From: a virus | Strand: one strand, 5' to 3' | Length of the DNA: 40,392 nucleotides | IMG/VR virus record: IMGVR_UViG_3300034104_004776 | Span: 1-40,392 of that record | Shown: piece by piece, positions 2,145 through 22,284 of the stretch | Position numbering within the stretch: position 1 is the first letter of the stretch | Layout: each line of letters starts with the position of its first letter | Translations under genes and position numbers: made by a program | The notes under the pieces: model-generated | Told to the model about the DNA's origin: nothing | What the model saw: only the letters and a program-made list of their open reading frames with translations | Database searches by the model: none

Positions 2145-2704
2145 AAAAGACTCTAACCCTGAATCAACTCCTGAATCAACTTCCCCCTCTGGAGACTCAG
2201 ATTCAACCAAAGAATCCGGACGAACCTCTCTTCTCTGAGGGAGACTTAACTACTCTAAATCTTTTCCGACTCGGGATGGTTCGTGTGATCTATGATCCTG
2301 AAAAGCAGTACACTAAACTAACCGAGATTGGCGGTACCATGGAGCAAGTGGGAGCGGTGACAATGCGTTCCGCTATTCACTCTATGGACCCTGCCCAAGT
2401 TTCCCGCCTGAGGGGATATCTCCTAGGGATGATTTCCACCATCACCCAGGAATTGAAACGCGGTGAAGAGAAGAAGGTAGCGGACGGAAAGAAGAAGATT
2501 CAGAAAGAAGTTGCCGATCGGGATGCAGCTAAGGTTAAGCAAGCGATAGCCGATCGGGAGACTCAACCCAAGATTCTCCCCAAACCGGGAAAGAAGAAAC
2601 TCTCCCCTGAAGAGAAGGCAATCGCAGCTATGATGAAAGCCGGACTCACAGCGGAGTATGCCAGAGAACTTCTGAAAACCCAGGGGGGAACCAATGCTAA
2701 CTAG
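2141..2704 (+). CDS. hypothetical protein with Lys-rich helical region
   Basis: A 187-residue protein that I do not recognise. The start at 2141 is chosen because it forms an ATGA overlap with the preceding stop and has GGGAGG about 11 bases upstream; an upstream GTG at 2123 is less likely. The N-terminal half is globular. Residues about 105-160 are a charged, Lys/Glu-rich helix (EEKKVADGKKKIQKEVADR), and the last 25 residues look like a small UBA- or HTH-like helical domain (AIAAMMKAGLTAEYARELL). It overlaps the helicase gene by 11 bases, and translational coupling suggests a partner of the helicase or another DNA transaction. Confidence 0.7.
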   Translation: MKKTLTLNQLLNQLPPLETQIQPKNPDEPLFSEGDLTTLNLFRLGMVRVIYDPEKQYTKLTEIGGTMEQVGAVTMRSAIHSMDPAQVSRLRGYLLGMISTITQELKRGEEKKVADGKKKIQKEVADRDAAKVKQAIADRETQPKILPKPGKKKLSPEEKAIAAMMKAGLTAEYARELLKTQGGTNAN

Positions 2705-4145
2705 CTCCGCTTCGCCAGTCTCTTCTAGTCACCAGAATCTCTCTGGTAGCAAGACTCTTCGCCACTATCAGGAATCCGGCGTAGACTTCCATCGCTCCCG
2801 TCCGATCTCCCTGAATGCAGACGATATGGGACTAGGGAAGACAATCCAATCCTTAGTTGCCATGAAGGATTGCAAATGTATCCTAGTCATTGTGAAGGGA
2901 GTGACAGTCTACCAGTGGATCAAAGAGATTCAGGATTGGCTAGACTCTTCAACACTAGCTTGCTTCCCAATCACGTCTAGCGCCGTCCCCCTCATCCCTG
3001 GATTCCGTCTGTATGTAGTCTCCATGGATACATTCTCCCGCCGGAAAGACTTGTATACCAATAAGACTCTCTTCGATGGGGTTATCGTTGATGAATGCCA
3101 TTCATTCAAGAATGAGAAATCCATGCGCGGGGGAGCCCTCGAAACCTTCTTCAAAGCGAATCTGCTTACCCTGAGGGAATATCGGTTCAAACGGGTTATC
3201 TTTCTCTCAGGGACCCCGATCAAGAATCGAGCGGATGAATTCTACCCGATCTTCCATATCATGGACCGTGCGAACTATCCCAGCAGAGCGCATTTCACAT
3301 CACGCTGGCTGATTCAAGATGAGAAAGGGAAGTATTCCCGAATCGCTCCCTGGAAGGAGGATTCCTTCTATCAGGAACTTTCTCAATTGATGATACGCCG
3401 CCTCAAAACAGAAGTCGCTACCGATCTCCCTCCCTTCCAGCGTTACTTTCTAGATGTCCCAATTGAAGACGGCGAGATTAAGAATTCTTACAATCGGACT
3501 CTTGATCTCTTTGACAATTGGCTACATGCTGAGAAAGACCTAGGGGCAATCCAATGCGATTCACTCCTGGGATGGCTTAACAAACTTCGATCAATCACAG
3601 CCAGAGCAAAAGCTCCCGTGATGGCAGAGATTGTAAATGAAGCGATGCAAGAACTACCCGAGGGGGAGAAACTCTGCATCACTCTTCACCATAGGGACCC
3701 ACTGGATATCCTCATGTATATGTGCCGTGAGTGGGATCCACTCTCTCTCACTGGGAGTGATTCCAATGAAGCAAAAGCCGAGATTGCCAGGGTCTACACT
3801 GATGACCCTTCCAGAAAGCTTCTATTTCTCTCTCAATTAGCTGGAGGTGTCGGGTTGAATCTTCAGGTTTGCAATAATGTCTATGCACTTGAAAGGCAGT
3901 GGAATTCTGCCGACGAGGAGCAAGTGGAATCTCGATTCAATCGCATCGGCCAAACTCGGCCTGTCTCCTACTGCTACTGCATTGCCCCCAGGACAATCGA
4001 TCAATATTTCTCTGATATGGTGGAAGAGAAACGGCAAACCTTTGCTCAGGTAGTAGACTACGGCTCCATGCAATCCTTTGACGCTACCCAGGACAAAGGG
4101 TTTCTCATGGAGCTAGCTAGCAGGGTTCTCTCTTCTCGGCTTTAG
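2694..4145 (+). CDS. SNF2-type (superfamily 2) DNA helicase
   Basis: A 483-residue superfamily 2 helicase of the SNF2 type. Visible motifs are Walker A DMGLGKT (44-50), a DECH box (133-136) in VIVDECHSFKN, motif III LSGTPIKNR (about 172-180), and the C-terminal helicase motifs GGVGLNL (about 383-389) and RFNRIGQTRPV (about 418-428), the last being the classic SNF2 motif VI. DECH is a variant of the usual DEAH or DEGH. Such ATPases translocate on double-stranded DNA and in phages often serve replication or recombination. It is the largest protein of the early left half, overlaps the preceding gene by 11 bases and is followed by a terminator hairpin. Confidence 0.93.
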   Translation: MLTSSASPVSSSHQNLSGSKTLRHYQESGVDFHRSRPISLNADDMGLGKTIQSLVAMKDCKCILVIVKGVTVYQWIKEIQDWLDSSTLACFPITSSAVPLIPGFRLYVVSMDTFSRRKDLYTNKTLFDGVIVDECHSFKNEKSMRGGALETFFKANLLTLREYRFKRVIFLSGTPIKNRADEFYPIFHIMDRANYPSRAHFTSRWLIQDEKGKYSRIAPWKEDSFYQELSQLMIRRLKTEVATDLPPFQRYFLDVPIEDGEIKNSYNRTLDLFDNWLHAEKDLGAIQCDSLLGWLNKLRSITARAKAPVMAEIVNEAMQELPEGEKLCITLHHRDPLDILMYMCREWDPLSLTGSDSNEAKAEIARVYTDDPSRKLLFLSQLAGGVGLNLQVCNNVYALERQWNSADEEQVESRFNRIGQTRPVSYCYCIAPRTIDQYFSDMVEEKRQTFAQVVDYGSMQSFDATQDKGFLMELASRVLSSRL

Positions 4146-6086: not shown

Positions 6087-6532
6087 ACACTTCAGCGATT
6101 GCAGAATGCTCAATGCAGAATATCCGCAGGTGGAAAGTCTTCCATCACGCGGTAGATTCGATGCTGGGGAAGAAGAATCCCGACGGGACCCAACTCTTCT
6201 CGATGAATTCAAGTTCCACAGACTTCTCCTACTTCATTGCAGAAGCTCTAGGGATGGATTTCAGTTGCTGTATCTTGAATGAGATCAGGCTAGAGCTAGG
6301 GCTAGACATTGATCTCTGGATGTATCTCATCTATGGTTATATATTTCTCCCAAATGTCCTCACCATCGGAAGTGAAGTTGGGGATGAACCGGAGCTTCTA
6401 GCAAGTCATGAAATTCCAAACTCTGATCTAGTTCACTGTATCGAAGTCTTCCGGAGAGTAATCGCCCGGCAGAACAATCGGGACTGGGCGCGCGCGATTC
6501 AGGAAAGCCGGGAGGAGAAAGTAAATGGCTAA
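6080..6532 (+). CDS. hypothetical protein, Cys-pair family member 1
   Basis: A 150-residue protein. The start at 6080 overlaps the previous stop (ATGGTAA) and has GAGAGGAG about ten bases upstream. It contains FSCCI near the middle, and its C-terminus VFRRVIARQNNRDW closely parallels the ALRQIVAAQNSRDR of the next gene, which also has SCCI. I infer that these are divergent paralogs. Members of the wider group carry a short Cys-x-Ala-Gly motif common in phage and bacterial hypothetical proteins, with no known function. It lacks the Ala-Gly that the next gene has. The stop overlaps the next start (ATGGCTAA). Confidence 0.7.
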   Translation: MVNTSAIAECSMQNIRRWKVFHHAVDSMLGKKNPDGTQLFSMNSSSTDFSYFIAEALGMDFSCCILNEIRLELGLDIDLWMYLIYGYIFLPNVLTIGSEVGDEPELLASHEIPNSDLVHCIEVFRRVIARQNNRDWARAIQESREEKVNG

Positions 6533-7007
6533 AGAGATTCAACTCGGAAAGATTTCCATCTCAACCAGAAATCGTAGGATGGGGAAAACGATTCAGCTCA
6601 TGAAGAAGTTTGAAAAGAACTTTGACATGAACTATGAGTTTTATATTCCTATAGATGGCATGAATCGGAGATATACCCAGCCACTCAAAACAGTTCTGGA
6701 AGCTGATTGTGGAGCCAGTTGTTGCATAGCAGGGTTTACTGTCACGGCTAACTTTCCTCAGATATCCAGAGATAGGATCAATAAAATTCTAGATGTAGCC
6801 CAGGAAGTTCTTCAATTAGATCATGATCTAAAGGAACTACTCTTCATGAACGAGAAAGTCACTCCAGAAGCTTTTCGACTCGCAGCTAAACTCCCTGAAG
6901 AGCACACTCTCTACAACAAAGATGTATCCGTCGGGATCAAAGCTTTGCGGCAAATAGTCGCCGCTCAAAATTCACGAGACAGGAAGGAACTCAAATGCCT
7001 AAACTAA
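6525..7007 (+). CDS. hypothetical protein, Cys-x-Ala-Gly family member 2
   Basis: A 160-residue protein with DCGASCCIAGFTV near residues 61-73, the motif of a widespread uncharacterised family in which a CGTTAC-x-AGW-like stretch is followed by helices and a C-terminal segment of the type seen here (IKALRQIVAAQN). It resembles the gene before it at its C-terminus and the gene at 8110 at its motif. It overlaps both neighbours by several bases, in a tightly packed set of small genes. The cysteines could bind a metal, but no full site is visible. Confidence 0.7.
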   Translation: MAKEIQLGKISISTRNRRMGKTIQLMKKFEKNFDMNYEFYIPIDGMNRRYTQPLKTVLEADCGASCCIAGFTVTANFPQISRDRINKILDVAQEVLQLDHDLKELLFMNEKVTPEAFRLAAKLPEEHTLYNKDVSVGIKALRQIVAAQNSRDRKELKCLN

Positions 7008-7891: not shown

Positions 7892-8113
7892 ATGAGCACC
7901 ACGGAGAAAGCTAAGCAGAGGATTATTCAGAATCAACTTCTGGAAGATGCTGAAACTGAAATTGCCCACTACACTTCTTGGCTGGCAGACTTGGAATCCA
8001 GACCAGAAGAAAGTGAATCCATCAAAGCATACATTCAAGCAAGACTTGCCGAAGCTAAGGAAGCCTTGGAGACGGTAAAGCAAATCGTGAAAGACATGGA
8101 GGAGGAAGGATGA
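7892..8113 (+). CDS. small coiled-coil protein
   Basis: A 73-residue, highly charged and almost wholly helical protein (EKAKQRIIQNQLLEDAETEI, then IQARLAEAKEALETVKQIVK) with a predicted antiparallel or dimeric coiled coil. No cysteine is present. Its stop overlaps the next start (GGATGA). The function is unknown; phage proteins of this sort often bind and inhibit host enzymes, which is inference only. Confidence 0.65.
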   Translation: MSTTEKAKQRIIQNQLLEDAETEIAHYTSWLADLESRPEESESIKAYIQARLAEAKEALETVKQIVKDMEEEG

Positions 8114-8589
8114 CTATCTGCCAAAGGAACGCACGAGTTCAACTTCTGATTGAACAGATTCAGAAGGAGCCGAAGAGATTCGACTATGACTTTGTCTTCG
8201 GAGAATTTGCTAGGGTATTTCCGGATTGCCCAGGGTCACTTCAAGAGGCTAAGAAATACAATTGCTCCGTAGAAGAGTTCATCCAAGATTGTACCACCAC
8301 TGCTTGCTTTGCCGGGTGGACAATTGCTCTCTTCGCTTGGAAGGAAAACCTGGAGGATCTCTACTCGCCCAACTTTAACTCTGCCCTAAGTATGGGAAAC
8401 TGGATGACTAAAGCAGCGGAACTCCTCGGGCTAACTGAAGAGGAGGGAGAAACACTCTTCGCTGGATCTAAGAAGTCTTGCAGAAACTTTGAGGAAGCAA
8501 TTACTTTTCTCCAGAACTTCATCAACGAAGTGAATCAGAGGCAGCAGGATAGAGAGGAGGAAGAAAGTGAATCCAACGCAGCAGTCTGA
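8110..8589 (+). CDS. hypothetical protein, Cys-x-Ala-Gly family member 3
   Basis: A 159-residue protein with CTTTACFAGW (about residues 55-64), the best match in this genome to the common uncharacterised CGTTAC-x-AGW family, followed by the usual AAELLGLTEEEGETLF segment and a C-terminal helix. It is related to the gene at 6525 and more weakly to that at 6080, giving three family members in about 2.5 kb. The C-terminus is very acidic (REEEESES). It overlaps the following nuclease gene by 23 bases. Confidence 0.75.
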   Translation: MTICQRNARVQLLIEQIQKEPKRFDYDFVFGEFARVFPDCPGSLQEAKKYNCSVEEFIQDCTTTACFAGWTIALFAWKENLEDLYSPNFNSALSMGNWMTKAAELLGLTEEEGETLFAGSKKSCRNFEEAITFLQNFINEVNQRQQDREEEESESNAAV

Positions 8590-9502
8590 TTCTCCCCAGC
8601 AGATAGTAATCACGCTGGATGCTTCTCAGGTCAAGCAGTTTATGATTTGCCCAAGGAGTTGGTACTGGAAATACTTCCGCTCCATCATCCCAATCGGCGG
8701 CCATGTTTCTCCTGCTCTCTCCTTTGGAACCGCGATGCATGGACTTCTCGACTGCCACTATGTCGGCCTGAGCAAGAAACTCCCGCCGATGGAAAGTCAT
8801 GCTCTGGCAATCGACTACGCCAAGAAACACTTCAGCCCGAGCGTTCCCGGAGGTATGGATAAACTGGTTTACCAGAAACTTATCTCCAAATTCACAACCT
8901 ACGTCATCCAGTATCAAGACTCGGACTTCCAGCCGATGGTATCCCCCGGAGGCAAGATTTTTGTCGAGCTGGGTTTCTCCTACGTCCTCTTTGAAAGTGC
9001 TAAGTATAAATTCATCCTGGAGGGGAGAATTGACTTGGTAGACACTTCTACTGGGGCGCCAACCATCGTGGATCACAAGACGCAGAGTTCAAAGTATCTC
9101 CTGCACGAAAGAGATCCTCAGCCGCTCACTTACTGCTTCGTAGCAAATGTCAGGAACGCAGTATTCAACTACATTGGAACTCAGGACAACTACAAACGGG
9201 AGTACAATCACCGCCAGCCATTTCACTTCTCTCGGATGACACTTGACTGGTGGGGAGAGAAGCTCCTGCGCAACTTTGAAAAGGTGGCAGAAGCCCTGGA
9301 GAGCGGGGACTTTGAAACCAATGAAACACAGTGTATGGGTAAGTTCTCCCCCTGCGAGTACACTCGGCTCTGTCGGGTACACTCTAACTGGGAGACAATT
9401 GTCCAGCATTACTACCAGCCAAAGCAAGAGTGGAAACCGTGGACACTCGAGGAGCTGGGAGACAATCCACTGGTACAGATTGAAGGAGCAGAGAATGGTT
9501 AA
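8567..9502 (+). CDS. RecB-family PD-(D/E)XK nuclease with Fe-S type cysteines (Cas4/AddB-like)
   Basis: A 311-residue RecB-type nuclease. Visible elements are FGTAMH (53-58), the core GRIDLVD (D156), IVDHKT (D169, K171) and the QPLTY motif (185-189), which together define the PD-(D/E)XK RecB/Cas4 group. Four cysteines, C28 in CPRSW and C256, C263 and C269 near the C-terminus, have the spacing expected for a 4Fe-4S cluster clamp as in Cas4 and AddB. It starts with GTG, supported by AGAGGAGG six bases upstream. No cas1, cas2 or repeat array is near, so a recombination or end-resection role with the Sak4-like ATPase downstream is more likely than CRISPR adaptation. Confidence 0.9.
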   Translation: MNPTQQSDSPQQIVITLDASQVKQFMICPRSWYWKYFRSIIPIGGHVSPALSFGTAMHGLLDCHYVGLSKKLPPMESHALAIDYAKKHFSPSVPGGMDKLVYQKLISKFTTYVIQYQDSDFQPMVSPGGKIFVELGFSYVLFESAKYKFILEGRIDLVDTSTGAPTIVDHKTQSSKYLLHERDPQPLTYCFVANVRNAVFNYIGTQDNYKREYNHRQPFHFSRMTLDWWGEKLLRNFEKVAEALESGDFETNETQCMGKFSPCEYTRLCRVHSNWETIVQHYYQPKQEWKPWTLEELGDNPLVQIEGAENG

Positions 9503-10358: not shown

Positions 10359-10571
10359 ATGGAAGAATATCCAATTTGGAAAGCTCCAGAGGGGGACTCG
10401 ATCAAAGAGTACTATGTCCCCCGAGACTATTCCCAGACCATCACAAAACAGATGGAGAAAATCTGGAAACCTGGGGTACTTGACGTTCGAGAGAGGTACA
10501 ACCCAGGGACGAAATCTGTCCGCGGATTCACTGTCTGGGTAGACTTGGAGAAAGCTCATGGTGTCTATTAA
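10359..10571 (+). CDS. small hypothetical protein preceding the Sak4-like gene
   Basis: A 70-residue protein, not recognised, rich in aromatics (YPIWK, EYYVPRDY, FTVWVDL). AAAGGA lies about six bases before the ATG. It overlaps the next ATPase gene by 14 bases, so the two are probably made together and may work together. Confidence 0.65.
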   Translation: MEEYPIWKAPEGDSIKEYYVPRDYSQTITKQMEKIWKPGVLDVRERYNPGTKSVRGFTVWVDLEKAHGVY

Positions 10572-11373
10572 CAAGATAGATCCTTGGGGAAGGTTCTTTG
10601 GCCTCTTCCTCGGGAAGTCCGGCCATGGAAAGACTTCTGCCGCCTGTTCTTGGCCTAAGTCAGTAGTGATTGACTCAGACCTAAGAATCCGTGGAGCACT
10701 TGCCGCCATCAATGGTTGGAACGTGCACAAAGATGTCTTCGTGGAGACAATCCCACCAGGAGGAACTTGGAATCAGCTGGAGAAAGCTCTGGAGACGATT
10801 CTGAATGACATCCAGAAAGGGAAGTCGGACAGGAAGACTCTGGTGATAGACTCTGCCACTACGATTACTCGTCTCCTGCGGAATGAAGGGACCCTACTTT
10901 CAGGTGGTAGCCGAAAGAATGAGTACAAAGATGAAAGGGGGATTATGGTGAAGTCTAATCTAGCGATTGCTTCCCCGACTGCCTACGGATACGAGTCCAG
11001 TGGTTTGGATGAGTTAGTAGACATTCTGAAAGCAATTCCCGGCATCAATGTAATCTTTACGGCGCATATCACTGAGAGGTATGGGAAGCCGCCCGGAGAC
11101 GGGAATGAGTTTGCGGAAAACATTGTCATCGGGGAGAGAATCACCCTGAGAGACAAAGTTGCAGAAAACCTCTTAATTCACTTCGATGAAGTCTATCGGT
11201 TTGAAGCTAAGGAATCAGCCGGAAAGATGAAGCACTTTGTGAACTTCAGATCAGATCTGGCTCGAACGACTTTCACTAGTCTCCCCATGAAACCTGTGGA
11301 GATTACTGGCAAGGATTTCTACACTATGTGGAAAGAACTCAGTGGGGCACCAAGCTCCCCTGACGAGAAGTAA
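10558..11373 (+). CDS. Sak4-like recombination ATPase (AAA_24/RecA-core)
   Basis: A 271-residue P-loop ATPase with Walker A GKSGHGKTS (19-27), Walker B TLVIDS (94-99) and a later TAHITER segment like sensor motifs of RecA-core proteins. Its size and its context, next to an SSB-like protein and a RecB-type nuclease, match the Sak4/AAA_24 phage proteins that stimulate single-strand annealing recombination. It starts inside the preceding small gene. Confidence 0.85.
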   Translation: MVSINKIDPWGRFFGLFLGKSGHGKTSAACSWPKSVVIDSDLRIRGALAAINGWNVHKDVFVETIPPGGTWNQLEKALETILNDIQKGKSDRKTLVIDSATTITRLLRNEGTLLSGGSRKNEYKDERGIMVKSNLAIASPTAYGYESSGLDELVDILKAIPGINVIFTAHITERYGKPPGDGNEFAENIVIGERITLRDKVAENLLIHFDEVYRFEAKESAGKMKHFVNFRSDLARTTFTSLPMKPVEITGKDFYTMWKELSGAPSSPDEK

Positions 11374-11407: not shown

Positions 11408-11833
11408 ATGGCACTGCTTAAGATTACTCGTGAACAGATTCTCGCGACGATGGACATTGAAGCGGGAGTTTATACTCTCCGCATCCGCTCAATCAAGGCG
11501 GAAGAACACAAGTCCAAGTCGGGGAATGCTACCCTGAAAGTGACTGTCGTGAATGAAGTCACCGGACCGAAAGACTCCGAGATGATGGGCCGGACCATCA
11601 CTCAATCCTACTATATGAACTATCTGGTAGGATTTCTCCCGCTGGTTTCAGTTGTCACCGGGGAGAAGTTCGATGATGTGGAAGAGATGGAAGAGGAACT
11701 CGATCTCGACACTGATTCCATGGTCGGGAAAGAGTATGTCGCCCGTGTTACCATGAAGCCCTATGAAGGGAAGAACCGTCCGGAAATCTCGGATGTTTTC
11801 CCCGCGGGATTTGAAGTCGGCGAGATGTTCTAA
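11408..11833 (+). CDS. probable ssDNA-binding protein (DUF669-like)
   Basis: A 141-residue protein with an OB-like beta pattern (YTLRIRSIKAEEHKSKSG, TLKVTVVNEV, YVARVTMKPYEGKNRPEI) and an acidic C-terminal half (VEEMEEELDLD). Proteins of this kind (DUF669-like) are usual companions of Sak4-type ATPases and are taken to be phage SSBs. A terminator hairpin follows directly. Confidence 0.7.
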   Translation: MALLKITREQILATMDIEAGVYTLRIRSIKAEEHKSKSGNATLKVTVVNEVTGPKDSEMMGRTITQSYYMNYLVGFLPLVSVVTGEKFDDVEEMEEELDLDTDSMVGKEYVARVTMKPYEGKNRPEISDVFPAGFEVGEMF

Positions 11834-11905: not shown

Positions 11906-12892
11906 ATGCCAGACTACATTGAAGGTGCAACTTTTGGGATGTCAAGTTTAGACGTTCCAGATATTGGGGATAAGACTTTCTACTGGGATAAGAACCTCAA
12001 GGTTTGGTTTTCCAGTTTTGCAGCCTCTGATGATCCTAAACATATCTCTATGCTCATGGCAGTTATAGATCATGGGGATACTTTTGCTCCCTCCGGAATC
12101 ATGAAAGGGTTGGCGGAAACTAAGTGGAAACCCAGCTTAGGACTTTGTAGCGAAGATGTGAAGATTGACATCTGGATTCCTCAGTGGCTATGGGAGAAGA
12201 AACCTTCTTACCTAGCCACACTGGAGAAACTTCGGAACATTGACTTATCTTACCCAGATTTCACTTCCTGGGTAAAGAAAGGGGTCTTTGATCCGGCTGT
12301 GAGGAGAGAGATTCCCTGGGATATTTTCATTCAAGCGGAGAAACTGGGACTTCAGATTCCAGGATTGACAGTAAAAGATGTGACAGGAATTGGATTAGGA
12401 GGAGACAAGATGGCAGAGGAAGAGATGGTAGCAAAAGAGAGGATTCCGCATCCAGTCCCTCTCCTAGATGATTTAGTCCAAGCAAAACTTCAGGACTCGA
12501 TTCTCTACAAACCAGGAGTAACCATGAGCCAAGTAGAGGAAGCTCGACAGAGAGAAGGTGGGGCAGAGATTGGCCGCGCCGGGTCAATTACTCCTCAGCC
12601 CATGATGTCTTTGATGGACATTCCCTACTATAGTTTACTTGCCATCTCCGAGCAATTCCAGGAGGGAGAGAAAGGTAAGTATGGCAGAAACAACTGGAAG
12701 AAAGGTGTCTGCGACCCAGAGTATCAGCGCAAGCGGAATGCAAACGCCATCCGACATTTGATGCTGTGGAGCAACGGCGACCGATCGGAAAACCACTTGG
12801 CGAAAGTCGCTTGGTTTTGCGTAACTCAGCTCGAACTGGAAAGACTCGAAAGAATTCAAATCGACCCGAATCAACTCTCCCTAGGAATCTAA
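11906..12892 (+). CDS. protein with C-terminal DUF5664 (dATP/dGTP diphosphohydrolase-like) domain
   Basis: A 328-residue protein of two parts. Residues 1 to about 165 are an unrecognised domain rich in Trp and acidic residues. After a Glu/Met-rich linker, residues about 232-318 match DUF5664: a KYGRNNWKKG stretch followed by NAIRHLMLWSNGD and a final HLAKVAWFCVTQLELERL helix. DUF5664 is linked to dATP/dGTP diphosphohydrolase. The family is usually short and stand-alone, so the long N-terminal domain is unusual. An AGGAG site is about ten bases upstream. MazG follows two bases later, which fits a nucleotide-pool module. Confidence 0.72.
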   Translation: MPDYIEGATFGMSSLDVPDIGDKTFYWDKNLKVWFSSFAASDDPKHISMLMAVIDHGDTFAPSGIMKGLAETKWKPSLGLCSEDVKIDIWIPQWLWEKKPSYLATLEKLRNIDLSYPDFTSWVKKGVFDPAVRREIPWDIFIQAEKLGLQIPGLTVKDVTGIGLGGDKMAEEEMVAKERIPHPVPLLDDLVQAKLQDSILYKPGVTMSQVEEARQREGGAEIGRAGSITPQPMMSLMDIPYYSLLAISEQFQEGEKGKYGRNNWKKGVCDPEYQRKRNANAIRHLMLWSNGDRSENHLAKVAWFCVTQLELERLERIQIDPNQLSLGI

Positions 12893-12894
12893 CC

Positions 12895-13293
12895 ATGAAA
12901 AATCACGAATATCAACAGCTTTGTCTCAAGACTGAAAGTAAGCTGACACCGGAGCAGATCCAAGCAAGATTTACTCCAGAGACAGTAAGAGCCCTTCACG
13001 CTGCCATTGGGCTGGCAACAGAATCTGGTGAGTTACTAGATCAGCTCAAGAAACATCTCTTCTATGGAAAGCCTTTGGATAGGGTGAATCTAATTGAAGA
13101 GGCTGGAGATCTGATGTGGTATCTATCCGTTCTCCTAGACTTCCTACTAGAAGGTCAAGAGGACCAATTCGAGTTTGTGCAGTTTATCAACATTGCCAAA
13201 CTTCATAAGAGGTATGGGGGAAGCTTTGATGCCATTAAAGCAACTCAGCGGGATCTTTCAGCCGAGCGGGAAGTACTAGAGAAAAATAAGTAG
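12895..13293 (+). CDS. MazG-like nucleoside triphosphate pyrophosphohydrolase
   Basis: A 132-residue protein with the MazG metal-binding pattern: E43-x2-E46 in ATESGELLDQ and E69-x2-D72 in NLIEEAGDLMWYL. Such all-alpha enzymes hydrolyse (d)NTPs to monophosphates and are frequent in phages, where they may alter dNTP or ppGpp-related pools. The ATG at 12895 has TAGGA about nine bases upstream; a longer frame from 12766 would run through the previous gene and is not needed. The DNA polymerase gene begins five bases after the stop. Confidence 0.88.
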   Translation: MKNHEYQQLCLKTESKLTPEQIQARFTPETVRALHAAIGLATESGELLDQLKKHLFYGKPLDRVNLIEEAGDLMWYLSVLLDFLLEGQEDQFEFVQFINIAKLHKRYGGSFDAIKATQRDLSAEREVLEKNK

Positions 13294-13298
13294 GAAAA

Positions 13299-15812
13299 AT
13301 GTCCAAACTATCAAAGCACAAAGAACAAGTCCAGAGCCTGATTGCCCCGTCGGGGAGAGAATCCGCATCCCTAATGATAGTTGGTGACTGGGGCTTTCAG
13401 GACGAGTTCAAGCGGGGGGAGGCATTTTCCTCCCCGTCCGTTACAAATCACTGGCTAGGAATGTTTAACGACGCGGGATTCCGAGGGCTCTATACTTCCA
13501 CCTATCGCACTTATCTCTACAAAGTAATCCCTCCACCGCATTCCAGGAAGGCCAAAGATAAGAACTCGGCTCTAAGAATCGCTGAGGCAATTGTCTCCGA
13601 GCTGTCGGGACATTCCACCACAGAACTTCTCCATCAGGAGGTAGTAGAAACCAAGCCGAGACTAATCCTCGCGACGGGGCCAGACGCCCTGAATGTACTA
13701 ACTGGCTACAATAAGTTTACCAAGCTGAGAGGAAGTGTTCTCCCACTGAGATCCGACTGGGCGAAAGAAGTTGGCCACCCGGTTCGCGTCGGAGCAGTTT
13801 ATGGCCCCAAGGAGATTTGGGTGGACCATGCAAGTCGCTTCTACACAATCAATGACCTGAGGAAACTAATTCCTCACCACGAGAACTTCACAGAGTACAA
13901 AGAGCCTGGGAATATCTGGATCTGCAAAGACTCTACTAGCTTGAAGAACTACCTGAACCGGTCTATCCGTAACTTCGAGTTCTCCACCTTCGACATAGAA
14001 ACTCTCTACGGGATTCCTACCTGCATAGGACTTTGCTTCGACGGAAAAGAAGCCGTCTGCGTGCCACTTCTCGACCGGAAGATAGATGTCGCCCATGCAA
14101 CCCTGATGTGGATGGACATCGGGAAGTACCTAGCTTCCTCCAAGATTCCAAAGGTGAACCAGAATATCAAGTACGACCAGACAATCATGGAGAGATTCTT
14201 CTTCCCAGTGAATCAAATCGTAGGCGATACAATGCTGGCGGCGCACACCCTCTACCCGGAGTTTCCCAAGGGGCTAGACTTCCTGACCTCCCTCTATACC
14301 GACATGCCTTACTATAAGGATGAGGGAAAGGAGTTCGATCCAGAGATCCACTCGAAGGAAAGACTCTACATCTACAACGCTAAGGACGCGCTGGTAACTC
14401 ACCAGATTTACTCTGAGCAGCAGAAAGAGTTGAAGGAGGAGGGACTCTGGGACTTCTATCAAGATCGTGTGATGCCACTTTACTTCCTGTACAAAGACTT
14501 GGACGGGCGGGGATTCCAGGTGGATACAGAAGTTCAGGCCCAGCTGAGAGATCGCTACGAGATCATTGCCCAGTCCAGAACACTTGACATCCAACTTACA
14601 ATCAACATTCCGGAGTTTAACCCGCTCTCGCCTGCCCAGTGCAAGGAAGTGATTTATGAGATGCTTGGCTTCAAGAAGACTTACCGCAAGAATGCAAATG
14701 GGGAGCTGGCGCTGTCCACTGACGAAGACACTCTGGATCACTTAATCATCCATGAGGGGGAGAATAACAAGTATGGAAGTCAAGGGCTACAGATTCTCCG
14801 CAACATCTCAAGTATTCGCAAGATTTACAAAATCCTTCAGATACTTGATATTGAGCTGTATCCTGACGGCACCTTCAGGTCTTCGGCCAAACTACATGGC
14901 ACCGAGAATGGAAGAACGTCTTTCGGAAAGTGTATCGACCGTCTATTCTCTTACCATACAAAGAAAACGGGCAAGAGGGTTCTTCGGGTAGGTGACTACC
15001 TTGGCAATACGTATCAATGTATTCCGAAGCATGGTTTCAAGATCGACGGAGTTCGCTACGGGAAAGACATTCGCATGATGTTTGTTCCCCGCCGAGGACA
15101 TGCTTTCATCGAGGTAGATAAATCTCAGGCGGAAGCTCGGGTGGTGGAAGTACTTGCTGACAACCTAGACTTCCTCCCAGAGTTTGATCGGAAGCCGGGA
15201 GTTCACTGCCTCACCGGAAGTTGGCTCTTCGATTGTGCCCCGCAGCAGATTATAAAAGGTACGGACGAATATGCCGATGCGAAAACCTTTCGTCACGGGG
15301 GAAACTACGACATGGGCGTGAATACTCTTATGCTGATGACTCAGAAGCCGAAAGAGTATTGTGCCCCGCTGCTAGTAAAGTTCCATGAGTTTAGTCCCAG
15401 AACGCGAGGAGTCTTTCACCAAGAGATAAGGGACCTCATCCGGAAGAATCGCCAGTTGATTACTCCCCACGGCCGGAGAAGGCAGTTCTTCGGAAGAGTA
15501 GACGACAACCTTTTCAAAGAGGCATTTGCTTGCATCCCTCAGGGAGTTGTCTCTGACGATGTTAAGTTCTCAGCACTTAGAATCTCGGAGAAGACAGATT
15601 CGCACAATTTACTTCTTTACGAAGGGCATGACGCTCTGCTCTGGGATGTCCCAGTGGAAAACATAGGGAGGCATTTAGAAATTGTAGGCAAAGAAATGAC
15701 CCAACCGATAGACTTTCGGAAGGGTTCAGTTTACCGGGACATCGAATTAGTTATCCCCATCGAGAAAGAGATTGGTCGGCAGAATTGGTATCACATGGAG
15801 CACATTGACTGA
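13299..15812 (+). CDS. UDG-like / 3'-5' exonuclease / family A DNA polymerase fusion
   Basis: An 837-residue replicative polymerase. Residues 1 to about 210 resemble a family 4-type uracil-DNA glycosylase fold (IVGDWGFQDEFKRGEAF near 27-43, PRLILATGPDALNVLTG near 119-135, then KLRGS), but the GExPG and HPS catalytic motifs are replaced (GDWGF; YGP). The exonuclease is complete: D232/E234, N289/D293 and Y359/D363. The polymerase has motif A VDKSQAEAR (D607), motif B K662-TFRHGGNY670 and motif C GHDA (D778). The E. coli Phe762 position is His666, and the Arg754 position is Tyr658. An insertion of about 25 residues splits the GRTS...QCIP segment. It overlaps the next gene by one base (TGATG). 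Confidence 0.93.
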   Translation: MSKLSKHKEQVQSLIAPSGRESASLMIVGDWGFQDEFKRGEAFSSPSVTNHWLGMFNDAGFRGLYTSTYRTYLYKVIPPPHSRKAKDKNSALRIAEAIVSELSGHSTTELLHQEVVETKPRLILATGPDALNVLTGYNKFTKLRGSVLPLRSDWAKEVGHPVRVGAVYGPKEIWVDHASRFYTINDLRKLIPHHENFTEYKEPGNIWICKDSTSLKNYLNRSIRNFEFSTFDIETLYGIPTCIGLCFDGKEAVCVPLLDRKIDVAHATLMWMDIGKYLASSKIPKVNQNIKYDQTIMERFFFPVNQIVGDTMLAAHTLYPEFPKGLDFLTSLYTDMPYYKDEGKEFDPEIHSKERLYIYNAKDALVTHQIYSEQQKELKEEGLWDFYQDRVMPLYFLYKDLDGRGFQVDTEVQAQLRDRYEIIAQSRTLDIQLTINIPEFNPLSPAQCKEVIYEMLGFKKTYRKNANGELALSTDEDTLDHLIIHEGENNKYGSQGLQILRNISSIRKIYKILQILDIELYPDGTFRSSAKLHGTENGRTSFGKCIDRLFSYHTKKTGKRVLRVGDYLGNTYQCIPKHGFKIDGVRYGKDIRMMFVPRRGHAFIEVDKSQAEARVVEVLADNLDFLPEFDRKPGVHCLTGSWLFDCAPQQIIKGTDEYADAKTFRHGGNYDMGVNTLMLMTQKPKEYCAPLLVKFHEFSPRTRGVFHQEIRDLIRKNRQLITPHGRRRQFFGRVDDNLFKEAFACIPQGVVSDDVKFSALRISEKTDSHNLLLYEGHDALLWDVPVENIGRHLEIVGKEMTQPIDFRKGSVYRDIELVIPIEKEIGRQNWYHMEHID

Positions 15813-17044
15813 TGAATTTCATCAACGCCTATCTGTCCTATACAGACGAATTAGAATCCCCTGGCTCCTTTTTTCTCTGGAGTGCTTATGCAGCCGTGTC
15901 TGCTACACTCAGAGACAATTGCTACCTGAACTTAGGTAGCATGAACTTGTATCCCAACATCTATGTAGTTCTCCTAGCAGACTCCGCCGAGCACCGGAAA
16001 GGTCAGGGATTAGCAATCACCCACCAGATACTTTCCGGGGTGGGCAATACTAAACTCATCCGGGGAAGATCTTCCATCCAAGCAATTCTGGATGACATGG
16101 CAGGAACTAACCAGAGCACTAATAAGTCACTGGGAGCTTTGAAAGGTGGGAGCTGTATCATCGTAGCAGAGGAACTTGCCGCCGCGATTGTAGAAGATCC
16201 AAGCGCAGTTAGAATCCTGACAGACATCTACGACTTCAGAGAAGAGTACACGGTCAATTTGAAATCCACGGGGAAGATTCACATCAAGAACAACTGCGTC
16301 ACCATGCTGGCGGCCAGTAATGAAACTTACCTGAAAGATGTCTATAACCAGGGAGCTATCTACGGAGGACTTCTCGGCCGAACCTTTCTCGTCAAGCCAA
16401 ATGAGTTTCGAGCAGCAAACTCTCTTCTCAGGGTAGATCCCGTCAAATATGACAAGAAGCCTCTGATAGCAAGTCTGACAGACATAGCCAAGTTGAAGGG
16501 GAAGTTTTTACTGCACGAAGAGGCTATTCAAGTTTACGAAACTTGGTATTCAAACTTGCGGGAGAGCTATAGATTGAAGAAGGATCGGACGGGGGTGATT
16601 GGAAGGATTCACACGGGGGTTCTGAAGCTGGCGATGATTCTAGCTGTGGGAACTAAAACCTGCCTGGAGATCACTAAGGAAGATATGCAGGAAGCGATAG
16701 AGCAGTGTACGACACTTATTCCAAACTACGAAAGCTACGCGATGGTAAGTGGGAAGAGTGAATTAGCGGATATCGGGCAGATGTTCTTGAACGATTTGAT
16801 CCAGTGTCCAGACTACACGATGGACAGGAAAACCTTCCTGGCAAAGCATCTCGGGGATACAACTCCCGAGCAGTTCAAACAGTTGGTCCAACTACTTGTC
16901 GATGCCGGAATGATTCAGGAAGCATACGGAATTGGTTATGCCGCATACTCCCTGACCAATCAAGCTCTGGCTATTTACAAGTTACCGCCGAGAGATTCTT
17001 CCAAGCGGAAGACTAAGCGGCGGCAGGACGATTCTGGGCTCTAG
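15812..17044 (+). CDS. DUF3987-type replicative helicase/primase-associated ATPase
   Basis: A 410-residue ATPase of the phage DUF3987 type. The P-loop is the divergent ADSAEHRKGQ (K63) seen in this family in place of a canonical GxxGxGKS, with a Walker B-like CIIVAEEL (E120/E121), a sensor-like MLAASNE, and a possible arginine finger in GLLGRTFLV. Such proteins sit next to phage polymerases and are thought to be replicative helicases. The C-terminus is basic (SSKRKTKRRQ). It ends tail to tail with the late operon, sharing CTAG. Confidence 0.82.
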   Translation: MNFINAYLSYTDELESPGSFFLWSAYAAVSATLRDNCYLNLGSMNLYPNIYVVLLADSAEHRKGQGLAITHQILSGVGNTKLIRGRSSIQAILDDMAGTNQSTNKSLGALKGGSCIIVAEELAAAIVEDPSAVRILTDIYDFREEYTVNLKSTGKIHIKNNCVTMLAASNETYLKDVYNQGAIYGGLLGRTFLVKPNEFRAANSLLRVDPVKYDKKPLIASLTDIAKLKGKFLLHEEAIQVYETWYSNLRESYRLKKDRTGVIGRIHTGVLKLAMILAVGTKTCLEITKEDMQEAIEQCTTLIPNYESYAMVSGKSELADIGQMFLNDLIQCPDYTMDRKTFLAKHLGDTTPEQFKQLVQLLVDAGMIQEAYGIGYAAYSLTNQALAIYKLPPRDSSKRKTKRRQDDSGL

Positions 17045-19056
17045 AGGATTTCTACCTCATCAGGAGTCTCTTCGCGAGGAAGTACCTCCCCCTCGGGGGT
17101 AAACTTGACAGGTACTTCCTTGTCCGAGCCCACTTGTCTTCCCATCCCAACTACTCCCGCCCGGCCTAGAATCTTCACGATCTCAGTTGGCGGAGCAGCT
17201 TTTGCATTCTTCTGGAGATTCAGCCCGAGCCGGATAAACTCTGGATCTTTCAGAAGTTTGGGAAGCTCTTTCTGGGCCAGAGTAAATCCAGCGAAGAGGG
17301 CAGTTCCTGTCCCAACAAATGGACTCATATTGCCAGATGCAGCCCCGGCAATTGTAGCTCCGAGGAGAGAAAGAGCGATGTTCCCTTTCTTGTAGGTCAG
17401 GAATCCACTGCCCTTATCTACTGTCTTCGGGTCAAGACTCTTCAGCAGCGACTTGAAGTTCTCCACATCCTGTTTTTTCCAGTTGGGTGGAATCACCGCA
17501 TCAAAGACTTCCCGCTTGGTCTGATCCTGCATCGAGGAAAGAAACTTCTCAGCAGAGAGTGTTCCGTCAGTGCCAGTCGCTGCCTGAAACTCTTTCGCTA
17601 AGAATGCTTCCGTCAGATCCTCGTGTCTTGCCCCAGCTCGAAGTGCCTCCCTAGCATTCTCCGGCTTGGCAATACTCTTTCTGAGGACTACTTCTGGTGC
17701 TTGGTTGGGAAGTCCCTTCTTGAGATTGTTTACCTCCTGAGAAATTGAATTTGCGATAGACTTATTCCCCTCACCGGAGGGCAGCTTGTAGAGGTTCAAT
17801 TTGGCCTGTTGAGCTGCTTTAGCCTCTGCTAGAGCCTTCCCAGCGCCCGGTTTCCAGCCCAATTGGCCAGAATTGACGCTATCTAGCTCTGCCTGAGAGA
17901 TTCGTCCTACAAGCTTTCGGATCTCACCCTTTACTTGCCGGGACATCTTATTGTCCCCCGCTAGAGACATTAGCTCGTCGCGAAGTCCTTTCAGATTCTC
18001 AATCCCCGCAATAGCAAGTCCGCTCGGCTCATCTACCAGAACCTGATCTAGATATCTCTGGATCTTCTTTCCCTCCTTCGACATCTTCAGTGTGACGTTT
18101 CCCTCACCCGCCGAGACAGAGAGAATCTCGTCAATAGACTTCCTCACGTCGTCAATTACCGGGGTGACATCAATTGGTCCCTGAATCTCTACTTGCCGCG
18201 GGACCATCTTCTTCGTCGCCGGAGAGACTTTTCCGGTGAGAGAGTTCTTGGTGCCTGGGACTACTTGCTCCTCCATCAGAGTTACCGGGTAGACAGTTTG
18301 ATCTCGGAAGTTAGCATTGAATTTACCATACTTATCTTTGATTGTCTTGTCTATTGCTTGACGAACTCTCTGCGCCCTCTTGGTTACTTTTTGGGCGGTA
18401 GTAGCTGTGTCGGCTCCTACATTCACCCCCCTTCTTTGCAATTCTCCCTTAAACTGATTCACTAAAGCTTGCTCTGCGGCCTGTTCTGCTTCCTGCATTT
18501 CAGGACCAGCCGCAAAGTTTGCAATGTTCCGGAGAGAACTGCCGTCACGGGCAAAAGTGGTTGCAGGGGCTTGTACTCCCCGAGCGATTAAATCTTGGTA
18601 GAGTTTATCTGCTCCAGGTACTGCATTCTTTCCAAGCAACCTCTTAGCTGCAACTTCCTTCAGCTTCCCCTTCCCCGCTTGCAGGACTCCCGGTACCTCA
18701 GGAATTGCCATCAGTGCAGTGTCTATTCCGGTAGAAAGTAGCTTCCCCTCAAAGTCTTCTGGAGGCTTTCCAATCGGCTGGCCGGGGATTCCTTCTCGGA
18801 TCATTTGAGAAGCAAGCCCACCAGCAATTGCTCCAGCAGGAACTGCTATCACCTTGGAAAGTCCTGGAGCCCGCATTCCCAACTTGGCACCAAGTCCCAC
18901 AGCGGCAGAGTCTGCTGTTCCGCCAACCATATCGGCTAGAGCTTGACCATCTGTGGATTCTATTGTGCCAAAAGTTCCTTGAGTAGCTTGTCTCCTTCTC
19001 TGGACTTCTTCACTCTCACCGCGAAGTACTTTCATCAGTTCGCTAAAGAAGCTCAT
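17041..19056 (-). CDS. internal virion (ejection) protein, large
   Basis: A 671-residue protein, last gene of the late operon. It has Gly/Ala-rich hydrophobic stretches near residues 50-85 (VIAVPAGAIAGGLASQMI) and again around 560-600 (IALSLLGATIAGAASGNM), separated by long charged helical regions with coiled-coil potential. This architecture, and its place after the fibre gene with two other helical proteins, matches podovirus internal proteins that are ejected with the DNA and form a channel. No lytic transglycosylase motif is evident. Start ATGA overlaps the previous stop. Confidence 0.7.
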   Translation of the reverse strand: MSFFSELMKVLRGESEEVQRRRQATQGTFGTIESTDGQALADMVGGTADSAAVGLGAKLGMRAPGLSKVIAVPAGAIAGGLASQMIREGIPGQPIGKPPEDFEGKLLSTGIDTALMAIPEVPGVLQAGKGKLKEVAAKRLLGKNAVPGADKLYQDLIARGVQAPATTFARDGSSLRNIANFAAGPEMQEAEQAAEQALVNQFKGELQRRGVNVGADTATTAQKVTKRAQRVRQAIDKTIKDKYGKFNANFRDQTVYPVTLMEEQVVPGTKNSLTGKVSPATKKMVPRQVEIQGPIDVTPVIDDVRKSIDEILSVSAGEGNVTLKMSKEGKKIQRYLDQVLVDEPSGLAIAGIENLKGLRDELMSLAGDNKMSRQVKGEIRKLVGRISQAELDSVNSGQLGWKPGAGKALAEAKAAQQAKLNLYKLPSGEGNKSIANSISQEVNNLKKGLPNQAPEVVLRKSIAKPENAREALRAGARHEDLTEAFLAKEFQAATGTDGTLSAEKFLSSMQDQTKREVFDAVIPPNWKKQDVENFKSLLKSLDPKTVDKGSGFLTYKKGNIALSLLGATIAGAASGNMSPFVGTGTALFAGFTLAQKELPKLLKDPEFIRLGLNLQKNAKAAPPTEIVKILGRAGVVGMGRQVGSDKEVPVKFTPEGEVLPREETPDEVEIL

Positions 19057-20303
19057 TTCTTCACCTCAGACTTTCTTCGGCTAGGGACAAATGTCAGTGA
19101 TCCAGAACTCTTTGACCGCCCGATAAATCTCCGAGACTTATCTCCTGACGAATCAGCAATGATGTCATTCAAGACTCTTCCTGCCTCATCATTATCTATC
19201 CCATTCACTTTCAACTTGCCAACTAAATCGGTCCCGCGCTCCCGGATCATAACTTCAATTGCATTCTGGGCTTTCTGGGGAGTCATATTGGTATTGGTGA
19301 CAAAGTCATCCATCAGCTTCTCTTCGTTGGCGGTAAGAGATGCTCCCAGCTCTGCAAGTTGCTTAGCCTGAATTCTAACCTGACCAAGTATGTTGTTATA
19401 CTCAGTTTGCTCTTTAGAGTTCCTGCCCAACTTCTCATTGATTCCAACGATAAAACTCCCACCCCAAGGTTTGTGAACTGCCCAGCCAGTCTTCTCCCCA
19501 AGATCCATTAATCGGTCAAGAGTCCCGATAAAGTTAGCAGTCTTTTGAACAGCTTCTCTTGTCCTCGCGGGAGCTTTCTTGAAAGGATCTGGAGCCGAAC
19601 CATCTCCCTTCGCTGCCCTTGAATTAGCAGCAGCAATCCTTGCAGCGTTATTCTCCCGCGAGACTTGCTGATTCCCCCGAGCAATCTCTTTCTGGGCCGC
19701 AATTCTCTCCCTGGAGAGTTCTGCCTGCGTCTTGGCTCTTGTCTCCTGTGCCTTTCTATTCTCCTCAGCAATTGCAAACGCGTTGGAGAGTTTCTCCTGG
19801 ACAACAGGCATTTCAGCCGCAACTTGAGCTTCACGAAGTTTCCCAGCCCCATAGGCTTTCAGATCAAACATCTCCTCCGGGGTGGCAATTTGCTCCGATG
19901 GAATCTCAATTGGAGAGTCTCCGAAGGGGTTGGGAACACTTTGCATCGGGGTAAGAGTCTCCACCGTAGTGGGTTCCCCCACTCGGAGGAAAGCTCCTGG
20001 ATTCTGGGTCGACGAGTTAAGAGATTGCTGGGTAGAGGGTTTTAGCCGGCCGGAAGTAAAGTCGTCGATGGCTCGATTCCGGATAGTTTGTTCCTGCAAA
20101 GCTCTTTGAAACTTGATTTGAGCATCCTGGAATTTATTCCTGTCCGCTCGATCTTGAGCCTCCGCCTTCATTCTCTCTTCAAACTGCTTAATGTCATTGG
20201 CCTCTTTCTGCCTGGCCAATTCAAGTTGCTGCTGCTGTCTAAAGTCCTGACTGGCCTGATCTCTCGCCTGGATGTATGCTTGGATGATTGGATGTAGGGC
20301 CAT
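19053..20303 (-). CDS. internal virion (ejection) protein, helical
   Basis: A 416-residue protein, Gln/Glu/Arg/Ala-rich and mostly helical, with long coiled coils at about 10-85 (FRQQQQLELARQKEAND) and 175-225 (ENRKAQETRAKTQAELSRER). The C-terminal part (LDRLMDLGEKTG...KLMDDFVTN) looks globular. AAGGAGA lies six bases before the ATG. Similar helical proteins in this genome position are ejected core proteins in podoviruses; no specific family is assigned. Confidence 0.65.
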   Translation of the reverse strand: MALHPIIQAYIQARDQASQDFRQQQQLELARQKEANDIKQFEERMKAEAQDRADRNKFQDAQIKFQRALQEQTIRNRAIDDFTSGRLKPSTQQSLNSSTQNPGAFLRVGEPTTVETLTPMQSVPNPFGDSPIEIPSEQIATPEEMFDLKAYGAGKLREAQVAAEMPVVQEKLSNAFAIAEENRKAQETRAKTQAELSRERIAAQKEIARGNQQVSRENNAARIAAANSRAAKGDGSAPDPFKKAPARTREAVQKTANFIGTLDRLMDLGEKTGWAVHKPWGGSFIVGINEKLGRNSKEQTEYNNILGQVRIQAKQLAELGASLTANEEKLMDDFVTNTNMTPQKAQNAIEVMIRERGTDLVGKLKVNGIDNDEAGRVLNDIIADSSGDKSRRFIGRSKSSGSLTFVPSRRKSEVKK

Positions 20304-20958: not shown

Positions 20959-22284
20959 CTATGTCGCCAGAAATACTGCGGTTATGTTAGAGTTTGTCGC
21001 GTCCACAGTACTAGATCCTGTGCCCGAGTTCTTTTTCACTTGCAACTTAGCTACCTTTGGCTGACTTGTCACTGACTGAATCCAAGATCTCGAACCAGTA
21101 GATCGTATGAAAGTTGCTGAGCTGGCAGCCATTCTTATGATCCCAGAGACTGCCGAGCCGTCATAGACATACTGGGCTTGAATCTCATCGTCATTCAGTT
21201 CTTTGCTGCCGACAATGTTTGCAGTGATTAGCCAAGTGCCATTCTTGTTTAGGGTTACAGAAGCTCCCGATAGGTCAGCAAAACTTGTAGTGAGAGTTGG
21301 GCTCGCAGAAGCATTTGCGCTGAGAGAAGTATTTGCATCGGTGGAGGGAAGAACTCCGGTGATTGTCCCGGAGACATCAATATCTACTGCCCAGAGTTTT
21401 CTCACCCGCTCGGTGGACCTTCCCAAATCCATCGTGTTTGTAATATATGGGATAATATGTCCATCAGCTAGATAAACCCATCGTATCCCAGAAGCTCCAG
21501 CTAGGTTAGTAGTAATCCACTGAGTATCTCCAGCCACCACGCCAACTCCTGTGGCTACAGCATATGTATCCCAGTAGTTTACATTTCGGTAGGCTCCAGT
21601 TCGATAGCCCTGGAATACAAGTGACCCGATTCTATCTCCATTCAAAATGTCTGTAGGGGCTGCGTAAGTTCCCCGAGCCCGTCGGACATTTATGGTATTG
21701 GCAGTTCCTGCGGTTGCTCCGTAGTAGGTGCTTAGAATCTGTTTTCGAGTAGTCTCTGCATCTTGGTTAATATTCCCAGCGAAGAAAGAGTTCTTCCAGC
21801 GGAGAGAACTATTCCCATTATCGAATGTGTTGTCTAAGGTGGGTGCAACTATTCCCCCGATGGTGACAACTCCCGCCGGGTCGATAAAGAGATCAAAGTT
21901 TAAACTTGGGTTGCTAACACTTCTATGCTGAAAAGCAAGATCGACCCTGGAGTTTAGAACCGTACTGATTGTCCATTTGCCATCAGAAGGTTCCCCGGGA
22001 AGGATAAGTCCCGAGTCAGAAAGAATCGGTTCGCGGAAGTAGTGTCTCAGGTTGTGATACACCACAGAGTTCTGTACGTTAGAGTCTGTGTCATTGGAGA
22101 GACTCGGTAGCGTGACTCCCCGCTGAGCGAAAGACAATTGGGCCAGCTTAGTATCTAGCTCTGAGCGAGTTACATACTGCAAAAGATCCTGGGAATTTGC
22201 GCCCTCCCTACGCATCTTCCCAAGCTCATTTAGTATTTGGTTGATAGAAAGTTCAGCGTCGCGGATTGTCCTGATGACACTCAC
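20959..22284 (-). CDS. tail fibre-like protein
   Basis: A 441-residue protein with an N-terminal helical segment (about 1-55), a beta-rich shaft with the fibre motif DNTFDNGNSSLRWKNSF (about 150-166), a further NTMDLGRSTERVRKLWAVDI copy of the same motif (about 281-300), and a C-terminal TNF-like jelly-roll pattern (about 320-441). The GTG start overlaps the preceding stop as GTGA, with GGAGGG 7-12 bases upstream. It is likely a receptor-binding or accessory fibre. Confidence 0.75.
   Translation of the reverse strand: MSVIRTIRDAELSINQILNELGKMRREGANSQDLLQYVTRSELDTKLAQLSFAQRGVTLPSLSNDTDSNVQNSVVYHNLRHYFREPILSDSGLILPGEPSDGKWTISTVLNSRVDLAFQHRSVSNPSLNFDLFIDPAGVVTIGGIVAPTLDNTFDNGNSSLRWKNSFFAGNINQDAETTRKQILSTYYGATAGTANTINVRRARGTYAAPTDILNGDRIGSLVFQGYRTGAYRNVNYWDTYAVATGVGVVAGDTQWITTNLAGASGIRWVYLADGHIIPYITNTMDLGRSTERVRKLWAVDIDVSGTITGVLPSTDANTSLSANASASPTLTTSFADLSGASVTLNKNGTWLITANIVGSKELNDDEIQAQYVYDGSAVSGIIRMAASSATFIRSTGSRSWIQSVTSQPKVAKLQVKKNSGTGSSTVDATNSNITAVFLAT

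Follow-up and report, generated by a model that had tools for sequence, protein, structure and literature searches.

The polymerase gene and its surroundings

The window analysed in this study, namely the whole 40,392-bp IMG/VR virus record, carries a gene for a single protein in which a uracil-DNA glycosylase (UDG)-like domain, a 3'-5' proofreading exonuclease and a family A DNA polymerase (PolA) are joined (Table 1). In the full-length AlphaFold2 model, built with 47 aligned sequences (pLDDT 92.3, pTM 0.89), these domains occupy residues ~14-200, ~225-380 and ~385-837, and the limits of 1-210 given to the UDG-like part by an earlier sequence-only reading of the window lie close to those of the model. 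Pfam recognised DNA_pol_A in residues 432-804 (E=3.3e-20, 72.8 bits against a gathering score of 34.3) and DNA_pol_A_exo1 in residues 263-378 (E=3.8e-08, above the cut-off), and the match to PHROG 17 (DNA polymerase) spans nearly the whole protein, including its N-terminal part. Residues 201-837 of the model matched the Klenow, Bst, Pol theta, Pol nu and T7 polymerases with Z 29-32. The Pfam score, the Pol I fold and the catalytic residues (the equivalents of Asp705, Asp882 and others) place the protein among the family A DNA polymerases.

Table 1. Genes, domains and residues at and around the polymerase locus, with positions in the window.
Feature	Position	Strand	Remarks
SNF2-type helicase	2694..4145	+	early region
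PD-(D/E)XK (Cas4/RecB-like) nuclease	8567..9502	+	replication/recombination module
Sak4-like AAA ATPase	10558..11373	+	conserved in the polymerase's replication/recombination module
ssDNA-binding-protein-like gene	11408..11833	+	weak match (phrog_378, E=1e-4)
Protein with C-terminal dATP/dGTP diphosphohydrolase domain	11906..12892	+	PF18909
MazG-like nucleotide pyrophosphohydrolase	12766..13293	+	immediately precedes the polymerase gene; uncertain start codon
UDG-fold / 3'-5' exonuclease / family A DNA polymerase fusion, His762 type	13299..15812	+	ATG start, 837 aa
Family-4-UDG fold	13338..13898	+	N-terminal residues 14-200, catalytically degenerate, without cysteines
Degenerate UDG motif 1	13383..13406	+	G29-D-W-G-F-Q-D-E36 (relatives GEAPGxxE)
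R144-G145-S146	13728..13736	+	RG as in family-4 UDGs (ITKVRG)
Degenerate UDG motif 2	13803..13808	+	G169-P170 (YGP), replaces catalytic His-Pro (HPA/HPS)
3'-5' proofreading exonuclease domain	13971..14438	+	D232/E234/D293/Y359/D363 intact
PolA polymerase domain	14451..15809	+	residues 385-837
Tyr658 codon	15270..15272	+	E. coli Arg754, T7 Arg518
His666 codon	15294..15296	+	E. coli Phe762, T7 Tyr526; clade-defining residue
Ala779 codon	15633..15635	+	E. coli Glu883, T7 Glu655; motif C HDA
DUF3987-type primase/helicase-like gene	15812..17044	+	directly downstream of the polymerase

No polymerase other than the fusion protein was recognised in the window. The window also lacks thymidylate synthase (TS or ThyX), dCMP deaminase, DNA methyltransferase and any PF00709 match for PurZ, in a record that may be incomplete; dUTPase was likewise not found in this possibly incomplete record, the dUTPase_2 search being a poor test that gave a faint match in only 1/14 controls. 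The uracil sensing or modified-base use suggested for the enzyme from sequence gains no support from this gene content, and the identity of a phage with hmU- or uracil-containing DNA is not supported, given the lack of dUTPase, TS and dCMP deaminase in the window. Elsewhere, a glycosyltransferase-like gene (30406-31152 (-), PF03452 Anp1 E=1.7e-7) lies near the major head protein gene, and two genes (6525-7007 and 8110-8589), both of phrog_889, a family of unknown function, are possibly paralogues. Four large late-region proteins of 671, 416, 1297 and 628 aa (17041-19056, 19053-20303, 22281-26174 and 26175-28061 (-)) matched none of the families in the searched libraries significantly.

Active-site residues and the UDG-like domain

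Residues were mapped by direct alignment of the window protein with E. coli Pol I and T7 gp5. The polymerase retained D607, E612 (steric gate), R539 and H636, which correspond to E. coli D705, E710, R668 and H734, together with K662, Y670, Q748, H777 and D778 (K758, Y766, Q849, H881 and D882), and the exonuclease retained D232, E234, D293 and D363 (D355, E357, D424 and D501) as well as Y359, the Tyr497 equivalent. The metal- and substrate-binding residues are thereby complete in both active sites, except for Arg754 and Glu883, which are replaced by Tyr and Ala. The placement of His666 at the Phe762 position and of Tyr658 at the Arg754 position, first proposed from sequence, was upheld by this alignment. 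With His666, the enzyme fits none of the F, Y and L types of viral PolA at position 762 (E. coli numbering), and with Tyr658 it departs from the Arg754 triphosphate contact, which is common but not strictly defining in the family.

Motif C had also been regarded as unusual; Ala779 does lie at the Glu883 position, but HDA cannot be counted as an oddity, as it is frequent in phage PolA. Among UDG-PolA fusions with Phe762, HDA was found in 50/77 and HDS in 22, and HDS also occurs in the HMO-2011, phiVC8, SPO1-like and PaBG polymerases. Since HDS or HDA is usual in both UDG-PolA clades, motif C of the window enzyme is ordinary. The view that His and Tyr are peculiar to this one enzyme did not hold either, because His762 is fixed across a large clade and Tyr754 recurs within it. 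Among the matches listed, Arg754 was retained in 72-73 of the 86 relatives aligned, and Tyr was present at 754 in 11 of 86, among them the window enzyme and the majority of its closest relatives; about six changes at position 754 were placed on the tree, making it a variable sub-lineage trait. Compensation for Tyr754 by His762 was ruled out, since His762 is clade-wide while most members keep Arg754.

As a whole-protein PDB fold search returned polymerase only, the N-terminal domain was folded separately, and residues 1-203 gave an AlphaFold model with pLDDT 92.7. Foldseek retrieved family-4 UDGs and UdgX (E 6e-11) for this domain, VIA-align gave Z 19.3 to UdgX, and the comparison with Thermus UDG 1ui1 gave Z 19.1 and rmsd 2.4 Å over 164 residues. 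Because the Z of about 19 to family-4 UDGs compares with about 13 for the next fold group (TDG/MUG), the UDG fold predicted at the N terminus is firmly supported by the model. In profile searches, TIGR00758 UDG_fam4 matched residues 15-190 at E=0.0014 (18.4 bits vs a cut-off of 125.3), and Pfam UDG PF03167 stayed sub-threshold in the 837-aa protein (16.0 bits vs 24.3).

The loss of catalytic motifs suspected from sequence was borne out, with GDWGFQDE and YGP standing in place of GEAPGxxE and HPA. The domain has the family-4 UDG fold and lacks the family's motif 1, GE(A/G)PG, and motif 2, HP(S/A); the asparagine of the TN motif is absent, and residues 1-200 contain no cysteine, so that the four Fe-S cysteines of family-4 UDG are missing. 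His109 in the KRRIH loop of UdgX, which captures uracil-DNA covalently, is also missing, the corresponding loop reading FTKLRGSVL. Given the motif loss and the lack of cysteines, the window protein is probably not an active UDG, and that reading was rejected. Arg144-Gly145 was nevertheless invariant in 87/87 family members aligned, among the matches listed.

This degeneration is a property of certain lineages. Both UDG motifs (GEAPG/HPA) are intact in 55/87 members of the family carrying His762 and are lost in the window lineage and several others; Pfam sees UDG in 43/47 family members, with a best E of 9e-30. Relative to the polymerase domain, the UDG domain evolved 1.5-1.7 times faster in the two larger degenerate lineages, as against ratios of 0.94-1.19 in intact-motif lineages. 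Such a raised rate, as estimated from the sequences, fits a change or relaxation of function, and the fold is kept in the window lineage although mean UDG identity is about 31%.

The His762 clade and its relatives

When the window polymerase served alone as query, the scan yielded two relatives (25% identity). With a six-member alignment as query, relatives turned up on at least 533 IMG/VR contigs, of which 80 were taken from the list; the search patterns lay within the exonuclease domain, so that residue 762 was not selected for. Among the matches listed, His was at 762 in 85/86 family members with that column. The sole exception, mycobacteriophage NoShow, came from another search and is a member of the Phe762 clade. 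All six complete relatives found independently in genome assemblies also carry His762; these matches are metagenome-assembled contigs of 5-50 kb, and a reliable host was not obtained from them. Named members are Microcystis phage Mel-JY34, Vibrio phage VS-ABTNL-3, Caulobacter phage Kuura, Polaromonas phage Tiera and one Desulfofustis phage. A single-protein scan with the Yersinia polymerase returned zero matches, and a scan with the methanogen-virus polymerase returned near copies and one 54% relative only.

In a FastTree phylogeny of 176 sequences (exonuclease plus polymerase, 550 columns), all 87 His762 sequences fell in one clade with support of 0.974, adjoined by the branches of MW202554 (Tyr762) and methanogen virus vir526 (Phe762). 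In an IQ-TREE analysis of 64 sequences with the O-helix columns removed, the UFBoot value of the His clade was 95; the grouping of this clade with MW202554 received 97, and the window lineage 100. On these sequence trees, His762 is shown to have arisen once and to have become fixed in one large clade of UDG-fused phage polymerases, and it persists without reversion in a clade reaching down to about 25% identity. In viral PolA, by comparison, Phe and Tyr are described as commonly replacing each other at 762 (PMC13228545). The Phe762 comparison set was partly gathered by a pattern containing Phe762 and Arg754, so its uniformity is not evidence and a confinement of Arg754 loss to non-Phe762 backgrounds is not claimed; the SPO1-like, PaBG, HMO-2011, E. 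coli and T7 sequences entered the tree independently of that pattern.

Several polymerase genes are interrupted. In one (L073:3197-6598), about 320 residues resembling an intein are inserted into the O-helix after Lys758 and before His762, and the gene is split into two ORFs in VS-ABTNL-3 (L090:2956-6090), Kuura (L091:2977-6381) and MW202554 (L092:1727-4364). Small ORFs lie between the polymerase halves of VS-ABTNL-3 and Kuura, and introns or split inteins are possible in all three.

The neighbours of 89 His762 loci (~5 kb) were compared with those of 83 Phe762 loci (about 4 kb flanks). A DUF3987-type primase lay beside the polymerase in 81/89 His762 loci vs 2/83 Phe762 loci, and a ParB_N-N6/N4-methyltransferase fusion lay upstream, mostly directly adjacent, in 69/89 vs 0/83 (L004:2583-3878, L005:3280-4671, L006:3228-4520, L016:3279-4541 and about 65 others). 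Conversely, dCMP deaminase, TS and dUTPase were found in 64, 58 and 28 of the 83 Phe762 loci, compared with 8/89, 0/89 and 0/89 His762 loci. As the uracil/thymidylate gene neighbourhood thus belongs to the Phe762 UDG-PolA clade, the modified-base idea is not supported for the window. Within that Phe762 clade, three loci (L094:1-5535, L095:1-5523 and L007:736-6226) carry dUTPase, TS/hydroxymethylase-like and dCMP deaminase genes beside polA, a gene content suggesting thymidine hypermodification in those phages. A protein with an Acb2/Tad1 hairpin (anti-CBASS type), recognised by Pfam, lies within 5 kb of polA in one of L028, L039, L046 and L048.

Presence of the methyltransferase accompanied intact UDG motifs (55:2 vs 13:14, Fisher p 5e-7, uncorrected for relatedness). 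On the tree, degenerate UDG domains occurred in 12/14 methyltransferase-less groups, many of which are nested, and a few loci (L011, L037 and L099) are without upstream sequence. The window lineage gave one weak methyltransferase match (L014), unconfirmed by Pfam. We regard this association as a lead only.

The UDG-PolA fusion itself is already known. SPO1-type polymerases, represented here by Bacillus phage SBSphiC, share the UDG-exo-PolA order and an N-terminal UDG-like domain that is also degenerate, but they have Phe762 and Arg754 and fall outside the His762 clade; the database name 'Phage SPO1 DNA polymerase-related protein' for family-4 UDG/UdgX records links these records to the SPO1 polymerase. 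The DNA polymerase I of Pseudomonas phage PaBG and the 'Lupandier' jumbo phages is a UDG-exo-Klenow fusion published in 2020, whose UDG domain was interpreted by the authors as a repair UDG (PMC7412058); it differs from the window enzyme in having Phe762, in being longer and in belonging to another clade. The window enzyme shares with the SPO1/PaBG type the UDG-exo-pol single chain and does not group with it on the tree. Serratia phage Serbin, Yersinia P744, PMBT14, KimJongPhill and GTE2 share UDG-exo-PolA, Sak4 and PD-(D/E)XK neighbours and HDA, but have Phe762 and dCMP deaminase, TS, dUTPase and hydroxymethylase-like neighbours, instead of which the His762 clade has the DUF3987 primase and the ParB-methyltransferase. 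The phiLo family-A polymerase (PDB 9qhs, released 2026-03-25; 1142 residues) is a solved phage PolA with a UDG-like domain, which matched the window N-terminal domain with Z 13.3 and a profile E of 6e-12; no paper on it was found in the literature search. DpoZ, the 2-aminoadenine polymerase of phiVC8, is also a phage PolA with an unusual residue 762 (Leu) and has HDS, but at about 633 aa it is too short for an extra domain, and its model scored 25 bits on the window polymerase vs a cut-off of 500. The Z-genome link hinted at by the MazG neighbour was rejected, as PurZ was not found in the window, a possibly incomplete record.

Surveys of viral PolA recognise F, Y and L at 762 (Nasko 2018 PMC6302109; Keown 2022 PMC9069017; PMC13228545), and these types likewise form clades by residue 762 with distinct replication neighbours, His762 not being among them. 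As Keown 2022 kept only F, L or Y (PMC9069017), the His762 clade was excluded by design. No report of a His762 (H762) PolA was found in the literature searched, subscription papers being mostly beyond reach, and the monophyletic His762 class appears undescribed in that literature.

Proposed role of the enzyme and alternatives

With a probability of roughly 0.68, we consider the enzyme to be an active, proofreading replicative PolA that works with the DUF3987 primase and whose UDG fold serves DNA binding or structure without catalysis. The fusion protein would be the phage's own replicative polymerase, and its partners in copying the genome would be the neighbouring DUF3987-type primase and the Sak4/PD-(D/E)XK/SSB-like module. 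Since Glu710 is kept, a DNA rather than an RNA polymerase is expected. The exchange of Arg754 for Tyr could lower activity.

By analogy with the chemistry of the T7 and Klenow polymerases, His762 would pack on the sugar of the incoming dNTP like Phe or Tyr, and its ring NH could donate a hydrogen bond to the triphosphate or the 3'-OH, as T7 Tyr526 does. From this packing and hydrogen bond, ddNTP (sugar) discrimination between that of Phe and Tyr enzymes is expected. As for the N-terminal domain, analogy and the retained fold suggest that in the window lineage it is no longer a glycosylase and may be retained as a DNA-binding, processivity or structural module; the Vaccinia UDG is a UDG fold that serves a polymerase holoenzyme without catalysis (PMC1936997).

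The raised evolutionary rate of the UDG domain in lineages with degenerate motifs is also the pattern of a dispensable relic and counts against this preferred explanation. Together with the single origin of His762, it agrees with a reading in which the domain is a relic in decay and His762 a founder substitution, neutral or locked in, that behaves like Phe, with nothing functionally special in the enzyme. Because the His762 clade is monophyletic and reflects a single event, the case for function rests on conservation and not on repeated origin; this conservation, with no reversion down to about 25% identity at a position where Phe and Tyr often interchange elsewhere, and the fold kept at about 31% mean UDG identity make such neutrality unlikely.

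The domain might instead still read bases, binding template uracil, or some other base, before the polymerase reaches it and then stalling the enzyme or recruiting repair, much like the read-ahead sensor of archaeal family B polymerases. UdgX, a UDG able to act as a tight uracil-DNA binder, provides a precedent, the family-4 fold is retained at high confidence, and most of the clade has intact motifs. In the window and its nearest relatives, however, neither motif 1 nor the TN asparagine nor the HP motif survives, and the UDG domain is under weaker constraint, while the dUTPase, TS and dCMP deaminase genes were not found in the window and are nearly absent beside the His762 clade, so we judge base reading improbable.

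Rather improbable, too, is an active site tuned to a modified nucleotide, in which His762, Tyr754 and Ala883 would jointly let the enzyme accept a non-standard dNTP or read a modified template. The MazG-like and dATP/dGTP-diphosphohydrolase-domain genes directly upstream are of a kind that serves in clearing dNTP pools, the polymerase of the modified-DNA phage phiVC8 likewise departs from Phe762, and thymidylate/hmU-type genes occur in the Phe762 UDG-PolA phages; yet PurZ, thymidylate synthase, dCMP deaminase and methyltransferase are absent from the window, HDA/HDS is ordinary, and His762 is present whether or not a locus has the methyltransferase and thus does not track one modification. A base-excision-repair polymerase, with the UDG domain excising uracil and the polymerase filling the gap, would agree with the domain architecture and the intact motifs of many relatives, but is highly improbable for a protein that lacks the catalytic motifs and is the only polymerase recognised in the window, placed in a replication module.

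The replicative reading remains the preferred one. Beyond it, His762 may mark a fourth functional class of phage PolA besides Phe, Tyr and Leu, with its own chemistry, a dedicated DUF3987-type primase and a repurposed UDG fold, an extension that we hold tentatively, at somewhat below even odds. Enzymes of such a class would engage sugar and triphosphate by a chemistry of their own, which may depend on pH and permit the loss of Arg754, and the UDG fold would be catalytic in relatives with an adjacent ParB-methyltransferase and a pure replication module in the window lineage.

Residue 762, which governs ddNTP choice as well as speed and fidelity, belongs to the most intensively studied positions in family A polymerases, and phage lifestyle is inferred from whether it is F, Y or L. 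A large monophyletic His762 class, comprising at least hundreds of environmental contigs and several isolated phages, is removed by the F/L/Y filter. Its enzymes are candidates for sequencing and amplification chemistry. In the window lineage, the fold of a repair glycosylase has shed its catalytic residues and is still joined to a replicative polymerase, and the His762 class offers a direct route to the relation of residue 762, primase partner and phage biology.
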